Positions 1,305-21,489 of a stretch of 21,489 nt of DNA are shown piece after piece (the first letter of the stretch is position 1; each line of letters opens with the position of its first letter). Location of the stretch: positions 1 through 21,489 of the IMG/VR virus record IMGVR_UViG_3300025872_000361. The stretch is one strand, 5' to 3'. Below the pieces are notes generated by a model that saw only the letters and a program-made list of their open reading frames with translations, was not told the origin of the DNA and did no database searches. Source of the stretch: a virus. The translations under genes and the position numbers were made by a program.

Positions 1305-1435
1305 TGGTCTGCTTTCTCTACCCATGTGTGTTGGCATTGGTGTGGATGGTCTGCTGGTAGCTGGCATTGCTGTTGCCAGGTGCCGGTCCTGTCGAATGCT
1401 CGAGCCCCTGTGCGCGTGCAATACGTCAGGAACAA
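1301..1435 (-). CDS. Small Cys/His-rich protein, putative zinc binder
   Basis: This is a putative 44-residue protein lying in the space between the WhiB and exonuclease genes. It ends in an ATGA overlap with the exonuclease start. The C-terminal half reads CQLPADHPHQCQHTW, a Cys-x-x-Pro-x-x-His-x-His-x-Cys arrangement followed by Trp. This resembles small zinc-binding proteins common in actinophages and suggests a metal site. The start is uncertain: a TTG at 1435 overlaps the WhiB gene by ten bases, and another TTG at 1486 would add 17 residues. No good ribosome binding site supports either. The gene is called because it fills an otherwise empty gap and carries this motif. Confidence 0.5.
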   Translation of the reverse strand: MFLTYCTRTGARAFDRTGTWQQQCQLPADHPHQCQHTWVEKADQ

Positions 1436-1809
1436 TTGTCTCTGCGCCGGCGCAATTCGTTCTGATGCTGACAGTGACTGCTGCAATATTTGCTCCTAGC
1501 CTCGAAGCCTGTCTGGAACAGCTGCTGGCAACCTGGACAGTAAACAGTTTTGGTGGTGTTGATCGTGCGACGCAGTTTGCGCCTCTGTCGCATGGTCAAG
1601 CCTGCCCAAATGCCTTCATCATTGCGTTCGAGCGCGAAGGTCAAGCAGTCTTGGTGGACTGGACAGGTTCGACAGATCGTGCGTGCGATCTTTGCTGTGT
1701 TCGCATTGCTGGTTTCTGGGAACCACCAGCTGGTGGGACGACCTTTGCAGGCTGCGTCTGTCATCCATGGTGCTGTTTCGAATGCTCTGACTTGGAATCT
1801 GTCATGCAT
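1426..1809 (-). CDS. WhiB-family regulator with extra C-terminal zinc finger
   Basis: This 127-residue protein has a complete WhiB domain (about 14-80). Cys21, Cys46, Cys49 and Cys55 are spaced as in WhiB proteins to hold a 4Fe-4S cluster. GIWAGLT (67-73) is a variant of the GVWGG turn, and a basic tail RQRRKLRR follows. WhiB proteins are confined to actinobacteria and their phages and act with the vegetative sigma factor or on DNA, so this gene is the best evidence for the host. Residues 91-113 add a second metal site, CPGC then CSSHC, followed by an arginine-rich tail. The ATG at 1809 overlaps the upstream nuclease stop by eight bases. Control of phage or host transcription is the likely role. 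Phage WhiB proteins are also known to oppose host WhiB proteins. Confidence 0.9.
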   Translation of the reverse strand: MHDRFQVRAFETAPWMTDAACKGRPTSWWFPETSNANTAKIARTICRTCPVHQDCLTFALERNDEGIWAGLTMRQRRKLRRTINTTKTVYCPGCQQLFQTGFEARSKYCSSHCQHQNELRRRRDNCS

Positions 1810-11695: not shown

Positions 11696-13570
11696 TCATC
11701 CAAGGATGGTTGTCTGTCCAAGCAATCCATAGGTTGCATCCTCGAGCAACCAAGGTTGAATTGCTGGACTGCCAGTAAAGGTAGTGTTCCAGGTTTCTGG
11801 TGTGAAGGTATGTGCGATCTGCTCAACAATCATCTGCTGTGAGATACGCGTTCCAATCCTATTGGGTTGGAGCTCGAAGGTGATTCTATCTGCCAACTTC
11901 GCGCCCAATACCTTCGGATAACTAGTGCTTGGGTCGCGTTGTGGAATCACCATCCAATCTTTGATACGCAAGATTGGTTCAGCGTATTGCTGCACATGAA
12001 TGGACGCATAGGTTTGTGCGTCGCTCTGCGAGTCGAGCAGGGTCTCAATCTGACGAGCTCGAATGCCATAGGTCGTCTGACTCGTCGTATCGGATGCGAC
12101 AAATGCTGCACCTTGACTGGTGGTCACAGTCACCTGGTTGGCTAGGAATTCGTCGGAATAGGTGATGCCACCAACGCTCGAGAATCTGACTGTGCCGGCA
12201 ACACCACTATCACTGTAGGTAGCTTGACTGGTAGTGGATCTGGTTGCTGTGAAGTCATTGGTTCTGTTCAGGAACATGACGTTGCCAGACCCATTGACAA
12301 AGATGCGTCCACCTTCTGTGCGCGCAAGAGCTTGCAGCACACTGAGCGCAGACGTTCCCCATTTCATGCCACCAGGTTGAACGGTACCGGTATCGAGCGC
12401 ACTGGTGGTTCCGTCTGTCTTCTCGCGCCATGCTGTTGGCCAGCCGGCAGCGTTCAAGACCTGCGTGATCCAGTCTGTGGTGGTCGTACCGGTCGATGGC
12501 ACGCCGCGCAAACCTGCTGCTGCGAGCTGCTCGACCTGTGCTGCTGTCAGCTCTGTATTCCAGATGCTGATGTGCGCTAGATCACCTGTGTAGTAACCAC
12601 TATCTGTGGTGGTGCCATTGGCAATGGCAATGAGCTGCCATCCATTTGCGTCACCACCTGTACCGGTAGTGTTACCGGTCGAGAGCAGGACACCATCCAC
12701 ATAGATTTTGATGGCACCTGAACCTGCGTAACTGACTACTGCGTGATGCCAGAGATCATCGTCAGCTCGAAAGCCTGAGTGACCTGTGTTGCTCGAGCCT
12801 CGCCGGTATGCGAGTCGTCCCAATTCATCGATCCCAATGCACGCAGGATTGGTCGAGTCTGCGCTAGCCAGGATCGGATTGAATCCACCAGATGGGCCAG
12901 CAGTATTGGTCTTGAAGAAAAAGCTGACAGTGAATGCACTAGTAGTATTGACAGCAGATCCAATGGCACCGTAGGTGCCATCATATGTTTGACTAGATCC
13001 AGTCAACCAATTGCTTGGTGCGCTACCAGTCTTGGGAGTCGCAGTCGTATTGGTGAAGGTGTAGGTGTCTTCCTTGTCTGCGACGAGCACATCTGTTGTG
13101 CCTAGTGGCCACCATGCAAGCAGGTTTGCGCTCGCAATGGTTGTGACTGTGTAACTGTAGAAGTCTGCCGGCAGATCGACTGCAGCAAGGTATGCCAGAC
13201 CATCGTAGGCTTCGATGTTGGTGGTGCTGTCTCCATCGACCTGTGGTGCTAGTGGCCAACCTGCAACGTGACCTTTGAACAGAGCGTAGGTCACACTGTT
13301 GTAGGTGGCAGTGAGCCTGATGAGTCTTCGAGCTTTCAATCCAGTAGGACTGATGCTGGACGCATAGAAAGGATCGAAGGTACGAGCTCTGTTGTCGAGC
13401 ACCAGGTTGAGGGTACCGGTAGAGAAATCCTCGAGCTCATTGGTTCGACCAACGCGCAAGGAACCTGACCTGGTGTAACTGGTGATATCCGTCCAGGTGA
13501 GCGTGCCAGTCTCGAGCGCACTGTTAGCAAATGCGACTTCGACCTTTACTGTCGGAATGCTTATCGGCAT
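11696..13570 (-). CDS. Tail hub/minor tail protein with inserted LamG-like domain
   Basis: This is a 624-residue protein from the ATG at 13570, overlapping the tape measure stop by one base (TGATG). The N-terminal part (about 1-145) has the hub-type opening WTDITSYTRSGSLRVGRTNELEDF, read in parts, and LVLDNRARTFDP. Residues about 150-345 form a concanavalin-like LamG domain: NLLAWWPLG, FTVSFFFKT, DDLWHHAVVSY, IKIYVDGVLL and GDLAHISIWNTELTAAQVEQL are its usual strands. The remaining part returns to the hub pattern and ends with LADRITFELQP, MIVEQIAHTFTPETWNTTF and SPA, typical of the C-terminus of such proteins. It forms the tail tip below the tube. The inserted lectin-like domain probably binds cell-wall sugars. 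Confidence 0.85.
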   Translation of the reverse strand: MPISIPTVKVEVAFANSALETGTLTWTDITSYTRSGSLRVGRTNELEDFSTGTLNLVLDNRARTFDPFYASSISPTGLKARRLIRLTATYNSVTYALFKGHVAGWPLAPQVDGDSTTNIEAYDGLAYLAAVDLPADFYSYTVTTIASANLLAWWPLGTTDVLVADKEDTYTFTNTTATPKTGSAPSNWLTGSSQTYDGTYGAIGSAVNTTSAFTVSFFFKTNTAGPSGGFNPILASADSTNPACIGIDELGRLAYRRGSSNTGHSGFRADDDLWHHAVVSYAGSGAIKIYVDGVLLSTGNTTGTGGDANGWQLIAIANGTTTDSGYYTGDLAHISIWNTELTAAQVEQLAAAGLRGVPSTGTTTTDWITQVLNAAGWPTAWREKTDGTTSALDTGTVQPGGMKWGTSALSVLQALARTEGGRIFVNGSGNVMFLNRTNDFTATRSTTSQATYSDSGVAGTVRFSSVGGITYSDEFLANQVTVTTSQGAAFVASDTTSQTTYGIRARQIETLLDSQSDAQTYASIHVQQYAEPILRIKDWMVIPQRDPSTSYPKVLGAKLADRITFELQPNRIGTRISQQMIVEQIAHTFTPETWNTTFTGSPAIQPWLLEDATYGLLGQTTILG

Positions 13571-16116
13571 CAAGCAACCTTGATCTGCAAAGGTCCGTTC
13601 CGACGTTGGTACGCAGCAAGAGCATCGACCACAGCAGCACCAATGTCAGCAGGACTGGACAAAGGTGATGCATTCACATTGATCGTGATCGAGCTTGGGC
13701 TACCAAGGCTCGAGATCCTGCTCAAAGGAATGATTGCTTCCGGTCCAGCCTCACCAACCAGACCCAACGTCGGAGCAGTGACGATGCCACCAGTCGCAAA
13801 TCTGGTCACACCATTCTGGTGATAGGTCGTCCGATCAGAGCTAGGAGAAGGATCGTTCTCCCAACGCGGAAGACCATTCGGCAACCAACCAAGACCAGGA
13901 AGGTTCCGAAGATTTCTGATGATCGGATTGATCACACCAACCAGAGCATTCCACGCGGTACGCAAAGCATTCTTCACACCATCGAAGATGCCAGAGAAGA
14001 CACCAACCACAGCATCCTTGACAGTCCCAATGACAGCTTTGAGACCATCGACCATCTTCGACCAGACACCAATGATCAGACCCAAATACCATTGGATCGA
14101 ATTGAAGATGCCAGAGAAAACAGTCTTGATGAAATCCCAAATGCCGGTAAAGACTCCGACCACCACGCGTTTGATGGTGTCGAAATGCGTCACGATCAAA
14201 CCAACCACCAGTCCAATCGGACCAGTAAAGAGCATGATCAGAAGCTTCCAGTGATCACCAATCCAAGAGACAACACTCATCACCTTCTCTTTCACAAGAT
14301 CGAAAGCACCAATGAATGTTGACTTCAGGAATCTGCCCACAGCATCGACTGCATCTCTAAACCAACCAACCTTCTTGTACGCAACAATCAGTGCAGCAGT
14401 CAATGCGACAACACCAGCAATGACCAAGAAGATCGGATTGGCCAGCATCGTCGCAGTGAGTGCGCGAAACACTCCAATGATCGATGTACCCACAGACTTG
14501 AGCGCACCACCAGCCTTCGCAAAAATGCCGAAAGCCTTACTGCTCTTGATCGACTCACTGGCCACACCACGCAACGCACCAAAGATGGATTGACCACGCG
14601 TCGCAGCAACATTCGAAAGAGTCTGAAAACCAGACTTCATCGAGCTGATGTTTCCACCAGCCTTCTTCAGAGGATCGATGAGATTCGTGATACCAGTCTT
14701 GGTGCTTCCAAGCACGCTCGAGAAACCACCAACAGCAGCCTTCGCACCCTTGAACAGCAGGAAAGCTTCAACCAATTTGGTGAGCAATGGTGGTGGAATG
14801 GAAGCAATGAGGTTGGCAGCAGTAGCTGCGAGTGATGCCAATGCCGGCAGCAAAGGTGCAAGAGCTGTCAACGCGTCTGCGAGATCCTGACCAACAGCAA
14901 CAGCAACATCACCAAGAGTCGTAGCCAGGTCTGGCAACACAGGTGCAAGCTGATTGATCGCATCGACCAGAGCACCAGACAAGGTGGACCCAACCTGCAT
15001 GACCACAGGAATGAGCTGATTGAATACCGGTACCAGTGCTCCGATAGCCGGCAGGATCGCATCCATCAATGCGAGACCCACAGGAATGATCTGTGGGAGC
15101 AACGCACCAAAGGCTGCAGCAAACTGAGTGAGCAAGGGTCCAGCAGCAATAGCCACCTGCTGCAGAGCGAGACCCACCGCGCTCATCACCTGGCCAATCG
15201 GACCAAGAGCTGGTGTGACTGCACCAAGAGCAACATTGATTGCAGTACCCAATCCTGCGAGGATTGGAGCAAAGCTCGCAATGATTGGTTGCATTGCCGG
15301 AATGATCTGCTGGATAACAGGAAGCAGCATCTGCTCGAATGGAGTGATGATGCTCTTGATTACCGGAATGATCTGCTGTGCCAATGGCAGGAGCGCAGCA
15401 CCAAGGCTCTCTTGCAGGTTGCCTAGCTGCACCTTGAGTCGCTCGATGGGATTGGCAGCTGCTTCAGCAGCACCACCAAATTGAGTACCAAGCTCTGCGA
15501 GAATGATCTTCTGAGCACCAAGCAGATCACCAGATGCTTGCAGAGATTTGATCTGTTCCTTCTGCTGATCAGTGAAGATGATGCCGGCACGCGTCAGCTT
15601 CGTCAGACCATCAGCAGGATCTTGGAGAGCCTTGCCGATCATCACTGTTGCGCTCTGCAGGTCTGTGCCCATGGCAGCAGACAGGTTCAGAGCAGCAAGA
15701 GCAGCCTGGTTGAAAATGTCATTACCCTTACCAAGCTCATTGCGAACATTGGTAAAGGTCATCAGCACATTGGCAGCACCCTGGACAACCTCATCGTCCA
15801 CACCAGAGAGCTCACTCAAAGAGTCTGCTAGTGCAGAGACCTGCTCACGCGTGACATTGGCAACACCACCAGTCGAAGCGATGACTGCATCAGTCAGCTT
15901 GGCAACGCGTTGCGATTCGAGCGCAGCATCAATTGCGCTCTTCGAGAAATAGGCTGCGCCGGCAGCAGCAGCAGTCAGACCAAGAGCAAGGGTCTTGCCG
16001 ACAGCAGCAAACCTGCTACCTAGGGAATCACCTGCACGCTCAACAGATTCAAAAGCCTTCTGAGCTCCGCGTGCGTCACCAAGAATCTCGACTGTAAGTC
16101 TGCGAGTCTTAGCCAT
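13570..16116 (-). CDS. Tape measure protein
   Basis: This is an 848-residue protein, the longest in the window, and it sets tail length. At about 1.5 angstroms per residue it predicts a tail near 125-130 nm. The N-terminal 230 residues are helical, with TMP-type segments such as ALAALNLSAAMGTDLQSATV. Residues 240-440 contain hydrophobic Pro-rich repeats (LLPVIQQIIPAM, QPIIASFAPILAGL, GALVPVFNQLIPVV). Residues 560-610 have strong membrane-like helices (ANPIFLVIAGVVALTAALIV). Repeated aromatic FSGIF/GIWDFIKTVF motifs follow. The end FATGGIVTAPTLGLVGEAGP then EAIIPLSR is the classic tape measure C-terminus. There is no obvious peptidase or muramidase domain. Confidence 0.95.
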   Translation of the reverse strand: MAKTRRLTVEILGDARGAQKAFESVERAGDSLGSRFAAVGKTLALGLTAAAAGAAYFSKSAIDAALESQRVAKLTDAVIASTGGVANVTREQVSALADSLSELSGVDDEVVQGAANVLMTFTNVRNELGKGNDIFNQAALAALNLSAAMGTDLQSATVMIGKALQDPADGLTKLTRAGIIFTDQQKEQIKSLQASGDLLGAQKIILAELGTQFGGAAEAAANPIERLKVQLGNLQESLGAALLPLAQQIIPVIKSIITPFEQMLLPVIQQIIPAMQPIIASFAPILAGLGTAINVALGAVTPALGPIGQVMSAVGLALQQVAIAAGPLLTQFAAAFGALLPQIIPVGLALMDAILPAIGALVPVFNQLIPVVMQVGSTLSGALVDAINQLAPVLPDLATTLGDVAVAVGQDLADALTALAPLLPALASLAATAANLIASIPPPLLTKLVEAFLLFKGAKAAVGGFSSVLGSTKTGITNLIDPLKKAGGNISSMKSGFQTLSNVAATRGQSIFGALRGVASESIKSSKAFGIFAKAGGALKSVGTSIIGVFRALTATMLANPIFLVIAGVVALTAALIVAYKKVGWFRDAVDAVGRFLKSTFIGAFDLVKEKVMSVVSWIGDHWKLLIMLFTGPIGLVVGLIVTHFDTIKRVVVGVFTGIWDFIKTVFSGIFNSIQWYLGLIIGVWSKMVDGLKAVIGTVKDAVVGVFSGIFDGVKNALRTAWNALVGVINPIIRNLRNLPGLGWLPNGLPRWENDPSPSSDRTTYHQNGVTRFATGGIVTAPTLGLVGEAGPEAIIPLSRISSLGSPSSITINVNASPLSSPADIGAAVVDALAAYQRRNGPLQIKVA

Positions 16117-17588: not shown

Positions 17589-17999
17589 CTAAGGATGGAC
17601 AGTCACTGAGAAGTCAATAGAAATGTATGTGACTTCACCAAAGATTACAGGCTGCATATTGCCACCGCGCACTACAACCAAAGTCTGAACAAAACCACCA
17701 AGGGTTTTATCCTGCTCGAGCGCAGCGCGCACACTGCGCGTGCCAGTCAAATCAAGATACTCAAAGAGCGCACGCTCACTCGCACGATCACTCGCACGAC
17801 CCACAACCACAGTCACCAGATACTGATGCACAGCATCACCAAGACCAAAAGCCTGGTGATACTCAATGTTGTCAATGCCGATGTATGCAGCCGGCGCAGC
17901 AATCTGATCTGGAATGTAATCAATGACTCGCAAACCTGGAATGGTTGCAAGAGCATTCTTCAACGCATCATTGATCTCAGCAATGGAAGATGTGCTCAT
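17589..17999 (-). CDS. Tail terminator-like protein
   Basis: This is a 136-residue protein with an ATGA overlap at its start. Its pattern is that of tail terminator proteins: a helix (AEINDALKNALATIPGLRV), strands PAAYIGIDNIEY and QYLVTVVVGRASDRASE, a helix RALFEYLDL, then SVRAALEQDKTLGGFV, QTLVVVRGG and FGEVTYISIDFSVTV. The terminator caps the tail tube and makes contact with the head connector. It follows the gp6-like connector directly, so the genome lacks an obvious separate head-closure gene between them. Confidence is good for fold and place, and moderate for the exact role. Confidence 0.75.
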   Translation of the reverse strand: MSTSSIAEINDALKNALATIPGLRVIDYIPDQIAAPAAYIGIDNIEYHQAFGLGDAVHQYLVTVVVGRASDRASERALFEYLDLTGTRSVRAALEQDKTLGGFVQTLVVVRGGNMQPVIFGEVTYISIDFSVTVHP

Positions 18000-18610
18000 G
18001 CGACAAGCTCAGGTTCGCGCCGGTACGGAGCGACAAGTAGCGCAGCAGTCGGATGCAAACCCTTCCGAAGATTGAGCACACCAGTCTCGACCACACCCAA
18101 AGATCCAAAAGGAGCTTCAACGCTCTTGAAGATCGTGATTGCTTGAATGATCGCAGCCTGCTTCACAGGACTAGGCACAGCTGGCCATCCCCATTTTGCA
18201 GTCACCTGCACTAGAGCCTGCCCATAGAACATGGGGAAATCCAAGGCTTCGATAGCGCGCACCTGTGTCCATGTCCAAGACTGACCATCAACCTGCTGGT
18301 TGAGAGGCTCGAGCTGGTAATCCGCGCTCGTCCAGGTCTGACTGAACGTGCCATCCATACCGGTATCTGTTCGAATGATCAGACCAGTAGCAGTCCAGAA
18401 GTCATCACAGAACACCAGATTTGGTGTCTGTGCTACGAAGATTCGAGCAGATGCGTTGGCATCCTTGTAGAACCTTCTGTTGCATTGAGCCTCGATCATG
18501 CGTGATGCAGCTTCGATAGCGAGCTCGAGCCTGCCATCATCGACAGAATCAAAAACATTCAGAGCCTGCTTCACATCAGACAGTGAACACAGACCATTGG
18601 TGATTGCCAT
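17996..18610 (-). CDS. Head-tail connector, HK97 gp6-like
   Basis: This is a 204-residue protein with AGGAG nine bases upstream. It begins with the usual helical part (CSLSDVKQALNVFDSVDDGRLE, in parts) and AIEAASRMIEAQCNRRFYK, the hallmark of gp6-like connectors. A strand section contains the YQLEP and VRAIEALDFPM segments, then ALVQVTAKWGWPAVPSPVKQA and AAIIQAITIFK. The family forms a ring below the portal. The adjacent glycosyltransferase genes upstream and the terminator downstream place it at the head-tail joint. Confidence 0.88.
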   Translation of the reverse strand: MAITNGLCSLSDVKQALNVFDSVDDGRLELAIEAASRMIEAQCNRRFYKDANASARIFVAQTPNLVFCDDFWTATGLIIRTDTGMDGTFSQTWTSADYQLEPLNQQVDGQSWTWTQVRAIEALDFPMFYGQALVQVTAKWGWPAVPSPVKQAAIIQAITIFKSVEAPFGSLGVVETGVLNLRKGLHPTAALLVAPYRREPELVA

Positions 18611-19435
18611 CTAGATGCGCTCCTGTGGGACGATCCACAACCAATGCAACAGCAACACAATTGCAATCCATGGGACAGGAATGAGCGCGGCTGTAGCCAA
18701 CGCTAATACCGGACCTGCTCCATGCTGATAGAGCCTGACTGAATCAGTCGCTACCAGCAATTGTGCATATGCCACTAAGACTACAACGCACACCCACAGG
18801 TTGAGCTCGTAAAGACCAAAGATGCACGCTCCCCAAGGAAGCAATAGCAGCTTGGCATCTCTCCAACGTCCAAGGTGATATTGGATACCAGCACGCAAAG
18901 GATGCGCCGCAATCCAATCCCATTCAGGATGATTGGTCTGCTCTGCTCGAGCGCACACCAGATGACTTAGCGTCGGCACGATGAGCACCAGCAATGGCCA
19001 GAATGACCATGCCCACAATGCTGCGAACACTGCTGCTGTCTCGCGACAGCACGCAGCAACAATCAGCAATGCGTACCCTGCGACCTGTAGCGACGGCATC
19101 TCGCTCGAGATGCAGCACACACTCAACAGAGTCAGCGCGGTAGCTGGCAGATCCACCTGGACAGGAATAGAGACCTGTGGACCCAAGATGCCAGGAAGAC
19201 CCAACAGCAATAGGACAGCAGCAAGCAGGGTCCAACCTGACAGACCATGCTGCTTTGCGAACCATGCCATCGAGACTGCGAGCACTACCCATGAGCTGCA
19301 GTAGACAATCCACCATCGGCGCAGGCTGCGCCCACAGACGCGTGGCAACAACCAACGCAAATGGAAAGGTCTAGTGACAGGAGCACCAGATGCCAGCATC
19401 AGATAACGCTGTGCGTCTGGACCCAAGTTAGGCAT
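18611..19435 (-). CDS. Polytopic membrane protein, GT-C glycosyltransferase-like
   Basis: This is a 274-residue protein from the ATG at 19435, which overlaps the upstream stop by eight bases; a TTG at 19465 is less likely. It has about seven to eight membrane helices, for example around 44-60, 68-88, 98-110, 117-129, 133-155, 194-230 and 242-268. Three short motifs hint at GT-C enzymes: VDLPATAL (94-101), CRETAAVF (130-137) and ATDSVRLYQ (229-237), like the K/RET and D-x-x-R segments of membrane mannosyl- and glucosyltransferases. Such enzymes use lipid-linked sugars. It lies next to the GT-A gene inside the head module, so the two may act together. The sequence evidence for catalysis is weak, but the membrane topology is clear. 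Confidence 0.6.
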   Translation of the reverse strand: MPNLGPDAQRYLMLASGAPVTRPFHLRWLLPRVCGRSLRRWWIVYCSSWVVLAVSMAWFAKQHGLSGWTLLAAVLLLLGLPGILGPQVSIPVQVDLPATALTLLSVCCISSEMPSLQVAGYALLIVAACCRETAAVFAALWAWSFWPLLVLIVPTLSHLVCARAEQTNHPEWDWIAAHPLRAGIQYHLGRWRDAKLLLLPWGACIFGLYELNLWVCVVVLVAYAQLLVATDSVRLYQHGAGPVLALATAALIPVPWIAIVLLLHWLWIVPQERI

Positions 19436-20204
19436 CAGCTCTTGGGAGTCGCTCAAGCCTGTCAAACACTCGCTCGTCCAACCAGAGAGGCTTCATGTGG
19501 GTAGTGCGTACACCAGTATGAATGTGGATCGGAATGTCGAGCGCACCAGCACGCGTGCAAAAGCTCAGGTCTTCTGAGATGGTCGCATTCACACTGGTAT
19601 TGAACACAGGAGAATACCAACAATTCCCATTTGCTTCTGCGATCTTCTCGAACACAGATCGATGGATGAGGATGCACGCACTACCGGTACCGGCAACACG
19701 CGTCACAGCATCACGCTCGTAGTCCAGACGCGCATGGAAACCCTGTCTCCCATCTGGCAGCTGGACCCAATCAAAGATGGTCGGAGAAGGTTCGACCAGG
19801 AATCCACCAGCACCATCTGGTGCTTCTTCTCGCATTGAGAAACAGAGACCACCAACAATTGGACGTTCCACAGGGTCTGCTGCTTCCATGAGTCGCTCGA
19901 CTGTATTGGGAAGGAATCCCATATCAGTATCGATCCACCACAACCAGTCAGCAGACCTGCTCTGCATGAAGCTCATGACAGCATCATTGCGAGCCTGAAT
20001 GATGCCACCAGTCCCATAACGCGTGGCCAACCAACCAGTCCCAATGACCTGTTGCTTATTGCCAACGTCATAGGAGATCAGATTCATCATGGACTGATGC
20101 CAAGAATGAGTGACCTGATTGCCATGCACATAACAGATCGTGACCTTATGTGCAGGGTTTAGCGACGGAAGCTGATTGTTGGAGCGAGGCTTACGAGTCT
20201 TCAT
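19428..20204 (-). CDS. GT-A glycosyltransferase (family 2-like)
   Basis: This 258-residue protein has an Asn/basic start and a Rossmann-type opening (KVTICYVHGNQVTHSW). IIQARNDAVMSFMQ follows, then WLWWIDTDMGFLP with the metal-binding DXD motif at 92-94. IVGGLCFSMR, RVAGTGSACILIHRSVFEKI and SEDLSFCTRA (Glu211, Asp212) are typical of phage GT-A enzymes in head modules. They transfer a sugar from a nucleotide donor. In some mycobacteriophages, similar enzymes glycosylate capsid and tail proteins. The gene follows the post-capsid gene with a 14-base overlap, so virion modification is the leading idea. Confidence 0.85.
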   Translation of the reverse strand: MKTRKPRSNNQLPSLNPAHKVTICYVHGNQVTHSWHQSMMNLISYDVGNKQQVIGTGWLATRYGTGGIIQARNDAVMSFMQSRSADWLWWIDTDMGFLPNTVERLMEAADPVERPIVGGLCFSMREEAPDGAGGFLVEPSPTIFDWVQLPDGRQGFHARLDYERDAVTRVAGTGSACILIHRSVFEKIAEANGNCWYSPVFNTSVNATISEDLSFCTRAGALDIPIHIHTGVRTTHMKPLWLDERVFDRLERLPRADA

Positions 20205-20424
20205 GCTTCACCACGCGTCGCTCACCAGGAGCTCGAGTCGCACGCTCGACTGGTGCTTGCTCTACCGTCCGACGAATCTTCACAGGCTGCGTAGCGAACA
20301 GGTCTCGTCGAGCCTTCACGAAAGGATCGTCGGAATCCCAAGGTTCATTCTGTGTGAGCTGTACCGGCAGACCAGTCGCAGGGTTGGTTGCCCACACATC
20401 TTCCTTTGCAAATACCACACGCAC
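20191..20424 (-). CDS. Small post-capsid protein
   Basis: This is a 77-residue protein from the GTG at 20424, with TGGAGG ten bases upstream. The frame continues to a TTG at 20520, but that start would fall inside a hairpin. It begins MRVVFAKEDVWATNPATGLP and contains WDSDDPFVKARRDLF, then VEQAPVERATRAPGERR. This is the pattern of short proteins that follow the capsid gene in many actinophages (a small strand part, then a D-D-P-x-V-x-x-R motif, then a charged A-P-G-E tail). Their role is not settled. Confidence 0.75.
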   Translation of the reverse strand: MRVVFAKEDVWATNPATGLPVQLTQNEPWDSDDPFVKARRDLFATQPVKIRRTVEQAPVERATRAPGERRVVKHEDS

Positions 20425-20448
20425 GCTGCTTGAGCCTCCACATGATTG

Positions 20449-20487
20449 TGCTCCGGTATCGAGAGCAGCCTTCCCGATACCGGAGCA
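20449..20487 (-). promoter_or_regulatory. Hairpin 2 after the capsid gene
   Basis: A perfect 13-bp stem, TGCTCCGGTATCG paired with CGATACCGGAGCA, has a 13-base loop. It lies between the capsid stop and the small post-capsid gene. It has no T run on either side, so RNA processing or message stability is as likely as termination. Confidence 0.7.
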
Positions 20488-20513
20488 GAAATCAGATGGG
20501 CTGCTGATGTAGA

Positions 20514-20556
20514 TGAGCAATCCAGTCCAGGCTTCCCCACCTGGACTGGATGCTCA
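20514..20556 (-). promoter_or_regulatory. Hairpin 1 after the capsid gene
   Basis: The arms TCCAGTCCAGG and CCTGGACTGGA have an eight-base loop. Beyond one bulged A the stem extends by TGAGCA pairing with TGCTCA, giving 17 pairs. It begins 19 bases after the capsid stop codon. In the leftward direction no T run follows, so it may protect the capsid message or allow partial termination. A TTTTT run lies only on the capsid side. Confidence 0.75.
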
Positions 20557-20575: not shown

Positions 20576-21489
20576 TCAGGTGTTCTGCAGGAGCCGAAAA
20601 CCGTTGTCGTTCACAGAGTCGAAACCGTGACGAGCAACAGCGTAGAAACCACGCTGACCAGTCGGTCGCGAATTCGCGCCGAACAGGTGCGGAACCAGCT
20701 CGAGCGTCATACCAGCACGCTGCGCGATGACGAAATTGCTGAAGTCACCACACACCAGAATATTGGCCACACCAGTCGTACCGGTCCAGTCGGGCGCGTA
20801 ATCCGTAGTGTAGACAGGACGACCGAACAGGTTGCCAATGCCACCTTCGGCAAGGTTGACAGTGTAGTAAGCACCATCACTCGTCGCCGCGAGGCTACGA
20901 ATCTGGTTCTCGACGCCGGCAGACATGATCCACGACGCGTTACCACGGTAACGCTCAGGAACAGACTTCCAGAGCTTCAGCAGATCGACAGCCGCAAAGG
21001 TGCCAGCAGTCGTCAGCTTCACCTCAGAAGCAGCCGTCTGGTCGATAGCAGTGAAGATACCGAAAGGCTGCGACGAACCAGAGCCAGTAATGGTCTGAGC
21101 AGCAACCAGGTCGATGTAGCCCTGGTCAAGCAGCGCACGCATCTCCTCCGCGAACGAAGGGTAATCCTGCCCAATCTCGAGGCTGAACGGAACGAAACCA
21201 GCAGCCTTGTAAACAGGGATCGAAGGCTGCGCGAGAGTCGGAGCATCGTCCGAAACCTGCGCGGCTTCTGCGTCATACGACCACGAAACACCAGCAGACG
21301 AAACACCCTTCCATTCGTCAGTAGTGATCGTGATGGTGCGCGCGATCTGAAGCACCGGAGCAGCAGCCGCCCCGCTCGTCAATAGAATTGTCGGATCGAC
21401 GAGCACAGGAATTCCGAACCCACCAGCAGTATCAGTACCTTCGCTCATGGCGCGATACTCATTGACAGCAGCAGACTCTTCAGCGGTCC
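20576..21489 (-). CDS. Major capsid protein, HK97 fold (5' end outside window)
   Basis: The last 303 residues are visible; the frame stays open to the window edge, so the true start lies beyond 21489. The internal ATG at 21448 is not the start, because the residues before it (YRAMSEGTDTAGGFGIPVLV) continue the family pattern. Further HK97 segments are FVPFSLEIGQDYPSFAEEMR, GSGSSQPFGIFTAID and LWKSVPERYRGNASWIMS, then FGRPVYTTDYAP and ILVCGDFSNFVIAQRAGMTLEL. The end reads GQRGFYAVARHGFDSV plus NDNGFRLL. It forms the icosahedral shell. Two hairpins follow the stop, which suits high expression relative to later genes. Confidence 0.95.
   Translation of the reverse strand, partial: TAEESAAVNEYRAMSEGTDTAGGFGIPVLVDPTILLTSGAAAAPVLQIARTITITTDEWKGVSSAGVSWSYDAEAAQVSDDAPTLAQPSIPVYKAAGFVPFSLEIGQDYPSFAEEMRALLDQGYIDLVAAQTITGSGSSQPFGIFTAIDQTAASEVKLTTAGTFAAVDLLKLWKSVPERYRGNASWIMSAGVENQIRSLAATSDGAYYTVNLAEGGIGNLFGRPVYTTDYAPDWTGTTGVANILVCGDFSNFVIAQRAGMTLELVPHLFGANSRPTGQRGFYAVARHGFDSVNDNGFRLLQNT

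Follow-up and report, generated by a model that had tools for sequence, protein, structure and literature searches.

The question raised by this locus is what two different glycosyltransferase-like genes, one for a soluble enzyme and one for a polytopic membrane protein, are doing among the head genes of a virus. The stretch analysed, an IMG/VR virus record 21,489 bases long, is referred to here in its entirety as the window. Its late genes follow one another on the minus strand in the order capsid, connector-like gene, GT-A glycosyltransferase, membrane protein (MP), head-tail adaptor, tail terminator, major tail protein and tape measure. The major capsid protein gene (20576-21487, minus strand; PF05065, 1.4e-37; phrog_10) is cut by the window end, and between it and the GT-A gene lies a small connector-like gene (20191-20520, minus strand; phrog_9538, 3.1e-8) that overlaps the GT-A start by 14 bases. 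The sequence-only reading had placed a GT-A gene and a membrane gene beside the capsid gene, and both reading frames were recovered on the minus strand, at 19428-20204 (ATG start, 258 aa) and 18611-19435 (ATG start, 274 aa; characterised through AlphaFold2, Foldseek and conservation). The eight-base overlap between the GT-A stop and the MP start (19428-19435, minus strand) is exact given the ATG start of MP; an alternative TTG start at 19465 would yield a protein of 284 aa. Directly downstream of MP lies the head-tail adaptor (17996-18610, minus strand; phrog_442, 4e-15; PF05135, 9e-6).

The window also encodes a WhiB-like transcription factor (1426-1809, minus strand; PF02467). WhiB is a marker of actinobacterial phages, and its occurrence here as well as on 19 of 26 large contigs with MP points to actinobacteria as hosts. 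Elsewhere in the window, a 625-aa protein encoded after the tape measure (11696-13573, minus strand) carries a concanavalin-A-like lectin domain (PF13385, 1.9e-16) and is perhaps a tail receptor-binding protein. GC and AT skew flip sign near 14 kb (about 13000-15000), in a region where the genes are apparently all on the minus strand.

A soluble glycosyltransferase linked to the capsid gene

That the upstream gene encodes a soluble GT-A with a clear DXD motif was borne out. The motif is D92-T-D94, within WWIDTDMGF, and the protein has no transmembrane segment, hence no membrane anchor. D92 and D94 are invariant in all 42 non-redundant MP-paired relatives, as are R72, N73, E211, D212, H236 and K238, a set of residues that is as expected for an active GT-A. 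The window protein matches the glycosyltransferase family phrog_34859 at 1.2e-19 and PF00535 at only 0.07, and among the Pfam GT2 models PF13641 is matched by six of 14 relatives, down to 3e-5. By its DXD motif and these profile tests, the predicted product of 19428-20204 is a GT2-like glycosyltransferase of GT-A fold. A sequence search of the PDB with this protein returned only a match at 0.31, to galactofuranosyltransferases. Kinship with gp108-gp110 of phage Che8 was not detectable (hmmsearch E 0.015-0.036; hhalign probability 3.6), and that idea was dropped. One isolated Ca. Planktophila phage encodes a relative; phages E7/F5 of Ca. Planktophila were rejected as carriers of the gene pair, since no MP adjoins the GT-A relative there and the neighbouring genes are unlike a head module.

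Among the 103 distinct GT-A relatives nearest to the window, 92 have a capsid gene no more than 3 kb away; nine adjoin an MP and 74 are clearly without one despite room to see it. The GT-A thus appears to belong with the capsid. Relatives carry other genes in the position next to the GT-A, namely those for a nucleotide-sugar epimerase, for methyltransferases or for a second GT-A, which may be separate or fused to the first. The fused form is seen in L033 (4004-5386), L034 and L035, where GT-A and a second GT-A-like domain make up one 460-aa protein in the capsid-linked place. In L005 (4004-6313), the place of MP after the GT-A is taken by another GT-A-like enzyme together with a protein that resembles NAD-dependent sugar epimerases/GDP-fucose synthases.

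Fold and predicted orientation of the membrane protein

Relatives of MP became visible through alignments: a single-sequence scan found one near-identical contig only, a two-sequence alignment scan found 111 relatives in IMG/VR, and later scans found 178 and 176 stretches. The named phage GX15bay also carries a relative (E 3e-12). Members of the family had no convincing match among Pfam and PHROG models, and four proteins tried against NCBIfam had no meaningful one; hmmscan of MP against the GT87 and PMT_2 Pfam profiles gave no match, and a PDB sequence search with MP gave nothing. Across 47 diverse phage MPs, the residues D7, R10, R22, R27, D95, E132, D231 and R234 are never or hardly ever replaced. 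The first four sit in the N-terminal loop, D7 within a P-D-x-x-R-Y motif.

The AlphaFold2 model of the phage MP, which is of high confidence (pLDDT 94.7, pTM 0.92), has an amphipathic N-terminal stretch followed by membrane helices. When this model was compared with the PDB by Foldseek, all matches above a probability of 0.2 were GT-C proteins save one designed binder, the GT-C matches reaching probabilities of 0.57-0.75 with poor E-values. A homologue from Thermomonospora, with one extra N-terminal helix (model pLDDT 92.4), gave eleven best PDB matches that were all GT-C. ArnT ranked first (probability 1.00, TM 0.56, E 0.018), followed by AglB (0.96), EmbA (0.93) and EmbB (0.89), with ALG3, ALG6, PglB and AftA also matched; EmbA and EmbB are arabinosyltransferases. 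The structure prediction that the sequence-only reading had proposed as a check on its GT-C-like membrane partner thus returned GT-C folds, with no E-value below 0.001 in either PDB comparison. Comparison of MP with GT87 and PMT_2 by hhalign was not significant (E 0.056 and 0.58, with a reversed-sequence control reaching down to 0.11), and profile-profile comparison with GT87, PMT_2, MFS and UbiA was indecisive, the reversed-sequence control nearly equalling the best score. Because no E-value fell below 0.001 and the GT87 profile match was not significant, GT-C membership is argued from fold and from the order of motifs that MP and GT-Cs have in common, namely an acidic N-terminal loop, an aspartate starting a transmembrane helix and a K/R-E motif. 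MP is thus, as modelled, a membrane protein of minimal GT-C-like fold. The acidic residue that GT-Cs carry in the loop before TM2 is represented by D7, in a variant form: MP has no recognisable DXD, only the D-x-x-R-Y motif. The 8-13 transmembrane helices typical of GT-Cs, TM1 included, were not found; TM1 is absent in all 115 distinct phage MPs, which have fewer helices. Two further viral proteins of uncharacterised role share the MP fold in BFVD, A0A514K300 of a Nitrosopumilus spindle-shaped virus (probability 0.99) and A0A6J5M3A1 of an uncultured Caudovirales phage (E 5e-8).

The charge of the loops bears on which way MP faces. GT87 and PMT_2 proteins have their active faces outside, and all GT-Cs known to us act outside the cytoplasm. 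In 45 of 47 MPs the density of lysine and arginine is higher in the loops of the conserved face than in the opposite loops, as against 5 of 32 GT87 and 0 of 23 PMT_2 proteins, a bias to be read with the caveats that the positive residues of the N-terminal loop could be catalytic and not topogenic and that the opposite loops are short. For this count the MP loops were defined by the AlphaFold2 helices, which include one at 114-130 that had escaped automatic segmentation by hydropathy. Under the positive-inside rule, the inverted loop charge predicts that the conserved face of MP is turned toward the cytosol. We hold this orientation at about even odds, given the possible catalytic role of the arginines and the shortness of the loops on the other face.

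Conserved pairing and proposed function

The sequence-only reading had suggested looking for the same gene pair in other phages, and the pair is widespread. A GT-A relative lay upstream in 78 of the first 82 MP loci. In the full set, a GT-A was present within 1.2 kb upstream at 101 of 115 distinct MP loci, directly adjacent or overlapping in 90; MP has capsid genes upstream in 91 of the 115 loci, and in 92 its downstream side holds a gene for a head-tail adaptor or terminator. Three of the 115 loci, including that of GX15bay, were not scorable; the 52-kb GX15bay record contains MP and no relative of the window GT-A. Among the eleven exceptions, MP stands directly behind an apparent terminase large subunit (recognised by eye, not by profile) in nine. 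In five of these (L102, L180, L191, L347 and L356) a GT-A is encoded elsewhere on the contig, several kb away; two contigs of 10.7 and 6 kb have none, and two under 5 kb were left out. In the two remaining exceptions, the neighbour of MP is a GT2 enzyme other than this GT-A. MP thus seems to depend on a glycosyltransferase, whether the GT-A or another GT2. The distance matrices of GT-A and MP show a correlation of 0.60, where shuffling gave 0.20 at most, with shared phage ancestry contributing. Given the 176-178 MP relatives, the invariant columns and the conserved pairing, GT-A and MP are not a random pair of reading frames.

We propose, with a probability of roughly 0.45, that the two genes, tied to those of the head, form a two-enzyme glycosylation cassette of actinobacterial siphophages, in which the GT-A acts on a virion protein and MP adds a lipid-borne sugar. 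The soluble GT-A would attach a sugar to an acceptor in the cytosol, for which a virion protein, for instance the major capsid protein, is the likeliest candidate. A virion protein is the simplest acceptor because the GT-A is capsid-anchored, cytosolic and found with assorted cytosolic partners. MP, as a minimal GT-C, would then add a further sugar from a host polyprenyl-phosphate donor. If MP is to act on virion proteins, which are in the cytosol, its active face has to point inward, and the conserved face would accordingly be turned toward that side. There is precedent for such acceptors in actinophages, in which phage glycosyltransferases glycosylate capsid and tail proteins, as in Che8 (gp110), Corndog (gp38) and Myrna (PMC12363180, PMC11256854). 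Che8 gp108-gp110 differ in lying near the genome end and in having no detectable kinship with the window GT-A, and no membrane GT-C is annotated in their neighbourhood.

The sequence-only reading had left open whether the virion or the host surface is modified, and we favour a virion acceptor. Its scheme in which the GT-A loads a lipid and the GT-C uses it fits less well, as the GT-A occurs mostly without MP, is unanchored, has no flippase gene adjacent and is paired with an MP whose conserved face is predicted to be cytosolic. In its fullest form this scheme would have the GT-A charge polyprenyl phosphate, a host flippase flip the product and an outside-facing MP glycosylate a host cell-wall glycan, blocking superinfection or re-adsorption to debris. 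Known GT-A/GT-C pairs follow this established scheme (gtrABC, PMC3688519; csbB-yfhO and gtlAB, PMC5836110), and it is in keeping with the overlap of the two genes and with fold matches of the MP homologue that include the envelope-glycan modifiers ArnT, Emb and AftA. Under this scheme a GT-A would not be expected to be kept where MP is missing, yet most GT-A relatives occur without MP; a flippase gene and a membrane-anchored GT-A might be expected, and neither an adjacent flippase nor a membrane helix in the GT-A is found in the window, although host enzymes possibly supply the missing parts. Both genes lie among virion structural genes and the charge pattern of MP is opposite to that of extracytoplasmic GT-Cs. 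We regard host cell-wall modification as the main rival explanation, though a less likely one.

MP might instead be GT-C-like and have no transferase activity, anchoring or delivering a polyprenyl-linked sugar or recruiting the GT-A to the membrane. Its size, far below that of characterised GT-Cs (8-13 transmembrane helices, PMC5836110), its missing TM1 and its D-x-x-R-Y motif in place of a DXD would suit such a role, which is nevertheless quite unlikely given that the eight (near-)invariant polar residues have persisted across deep divergence in an active-site-like manner. It is less plausible still that GT-A and MP are independent additions sharing only their location, a permissive insertion slot by the capsid gene. 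The slot does accept many different enzymes; however, MP nearly always has a GT-A, even an unlinked one, and the correlation of the distance matrices exceeds its shuffled controls, even if common ancestry explains part of it. We consider independent addition very improbable.

That the pairing of a GT-A with a membrane partner looks new, as the sequence-only reading had put it, is too strong, as gtrB/gtrC and csbB-yfhO precede it. The gtrABC loci of P22 and Shigella phages likewise combine a phage GT-A-type GtrB with a membrane glycosyltransferase, GtrC (PMC3688519). They differ in including the flippase GtrA and in being seroconversion loci of temperate phages outside the capsid operon, whereas the GT-A of the window is not anchored in the membrane and its relatives usually lack MP; no GtrA-type flippase is present in the operon, where the neighbours are capsid, connector and adaptor genes. 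Teichoic acid glycosylation by csbB-yfhO and gtlA-gtlB also relies on a GT-A and GT-C pair, GtlB being a small GT-C with eight transmembrane helices and acidic residues in its first loop (PMC5836110). Compared by description, those pairs are chromosomal, their GT-A is anchored by C-terminal transmembrane helices and their active site is extracellular. MP resembles ArnT, EmbA-EmbB, AftA and GT87 in fold (Foldseek) and in the order of motifs, and departs from them in its length of 274 aa, its missing TM1, its inverted loop charge and its lack of significant sequence similarity. In the open-access literature, nothing on phage GT-C or membrane glycosyltransferases was found beyond the gtr systems. 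As far as searched, then, neither the embedding of such a pair beside the capsid gene, nor a GT-C-like family of such small size without TM1, nor the almost obligate reliance of that family on a glycosyltransferase linked to the capsid has been described. The family is apparently unlisted, is enriched in actinophages and is locked to a capsid-linked GT-A, and the pair makes virion glycosylation accessible to testing in actinophages that are abundant and uncultured.

Bacterial homologues and the candidate sugar donor

Few bacterial chromosomes carry a member of the MP family (1 of 395 and 5 of 299 genomes), so that a housekeeping origin of the phage MPs is not obvious. The five homologues come from Thermomonospora, Microtetraspora, Streptosporangium and two more genomes of the same family sample. 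Those in L124-L126 possess the extra N-terminal helix (TM1) that is absent from phage MPs. In two of the five bacterial loci, the MP homologue adjoins genes for DPPR synthase, DprE1 and DprE2, which constitute the pathway to decaprenyl-phosphoryl-arabinose. This lipid is the sole known D-arabinofuranose donor in these bacteria. These two neighbourhoods, which belong to chromosomal homologues and not to phages, hint that the donor of MP is a lipid-linked sugar, for which decaprenyl-phosphoryl-arabinose would be a plausible candidate. The homologue G536, linked to the decaprenyl-phosphoryl-arabinose genes, has lost two conserved acids (D95 to E and D231 to G).

A more specific proposal is that MP is a cytosol-facing GT-C, with TM1 lost and the loop charge inverted, that decorates virion proteins with a sugar made by the host only in lipid-linked form, such as D-arabinofuranose. 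We consider this rather unlikely as a whole; if the cytosolic orientation is true, MP would be a GT-C of reversed topology and would provide a route from lipid-linked sugars to virion decoration. In the Streptosporangiales, chromosomal MP homologues also occur between a Gfo/Idh/MocA oxidoreductase and a carbamoyltransferase, in a conserved and unexplained cluster (L211, 8033-11710; L126, 6572-10216; L213, 8640-12255).
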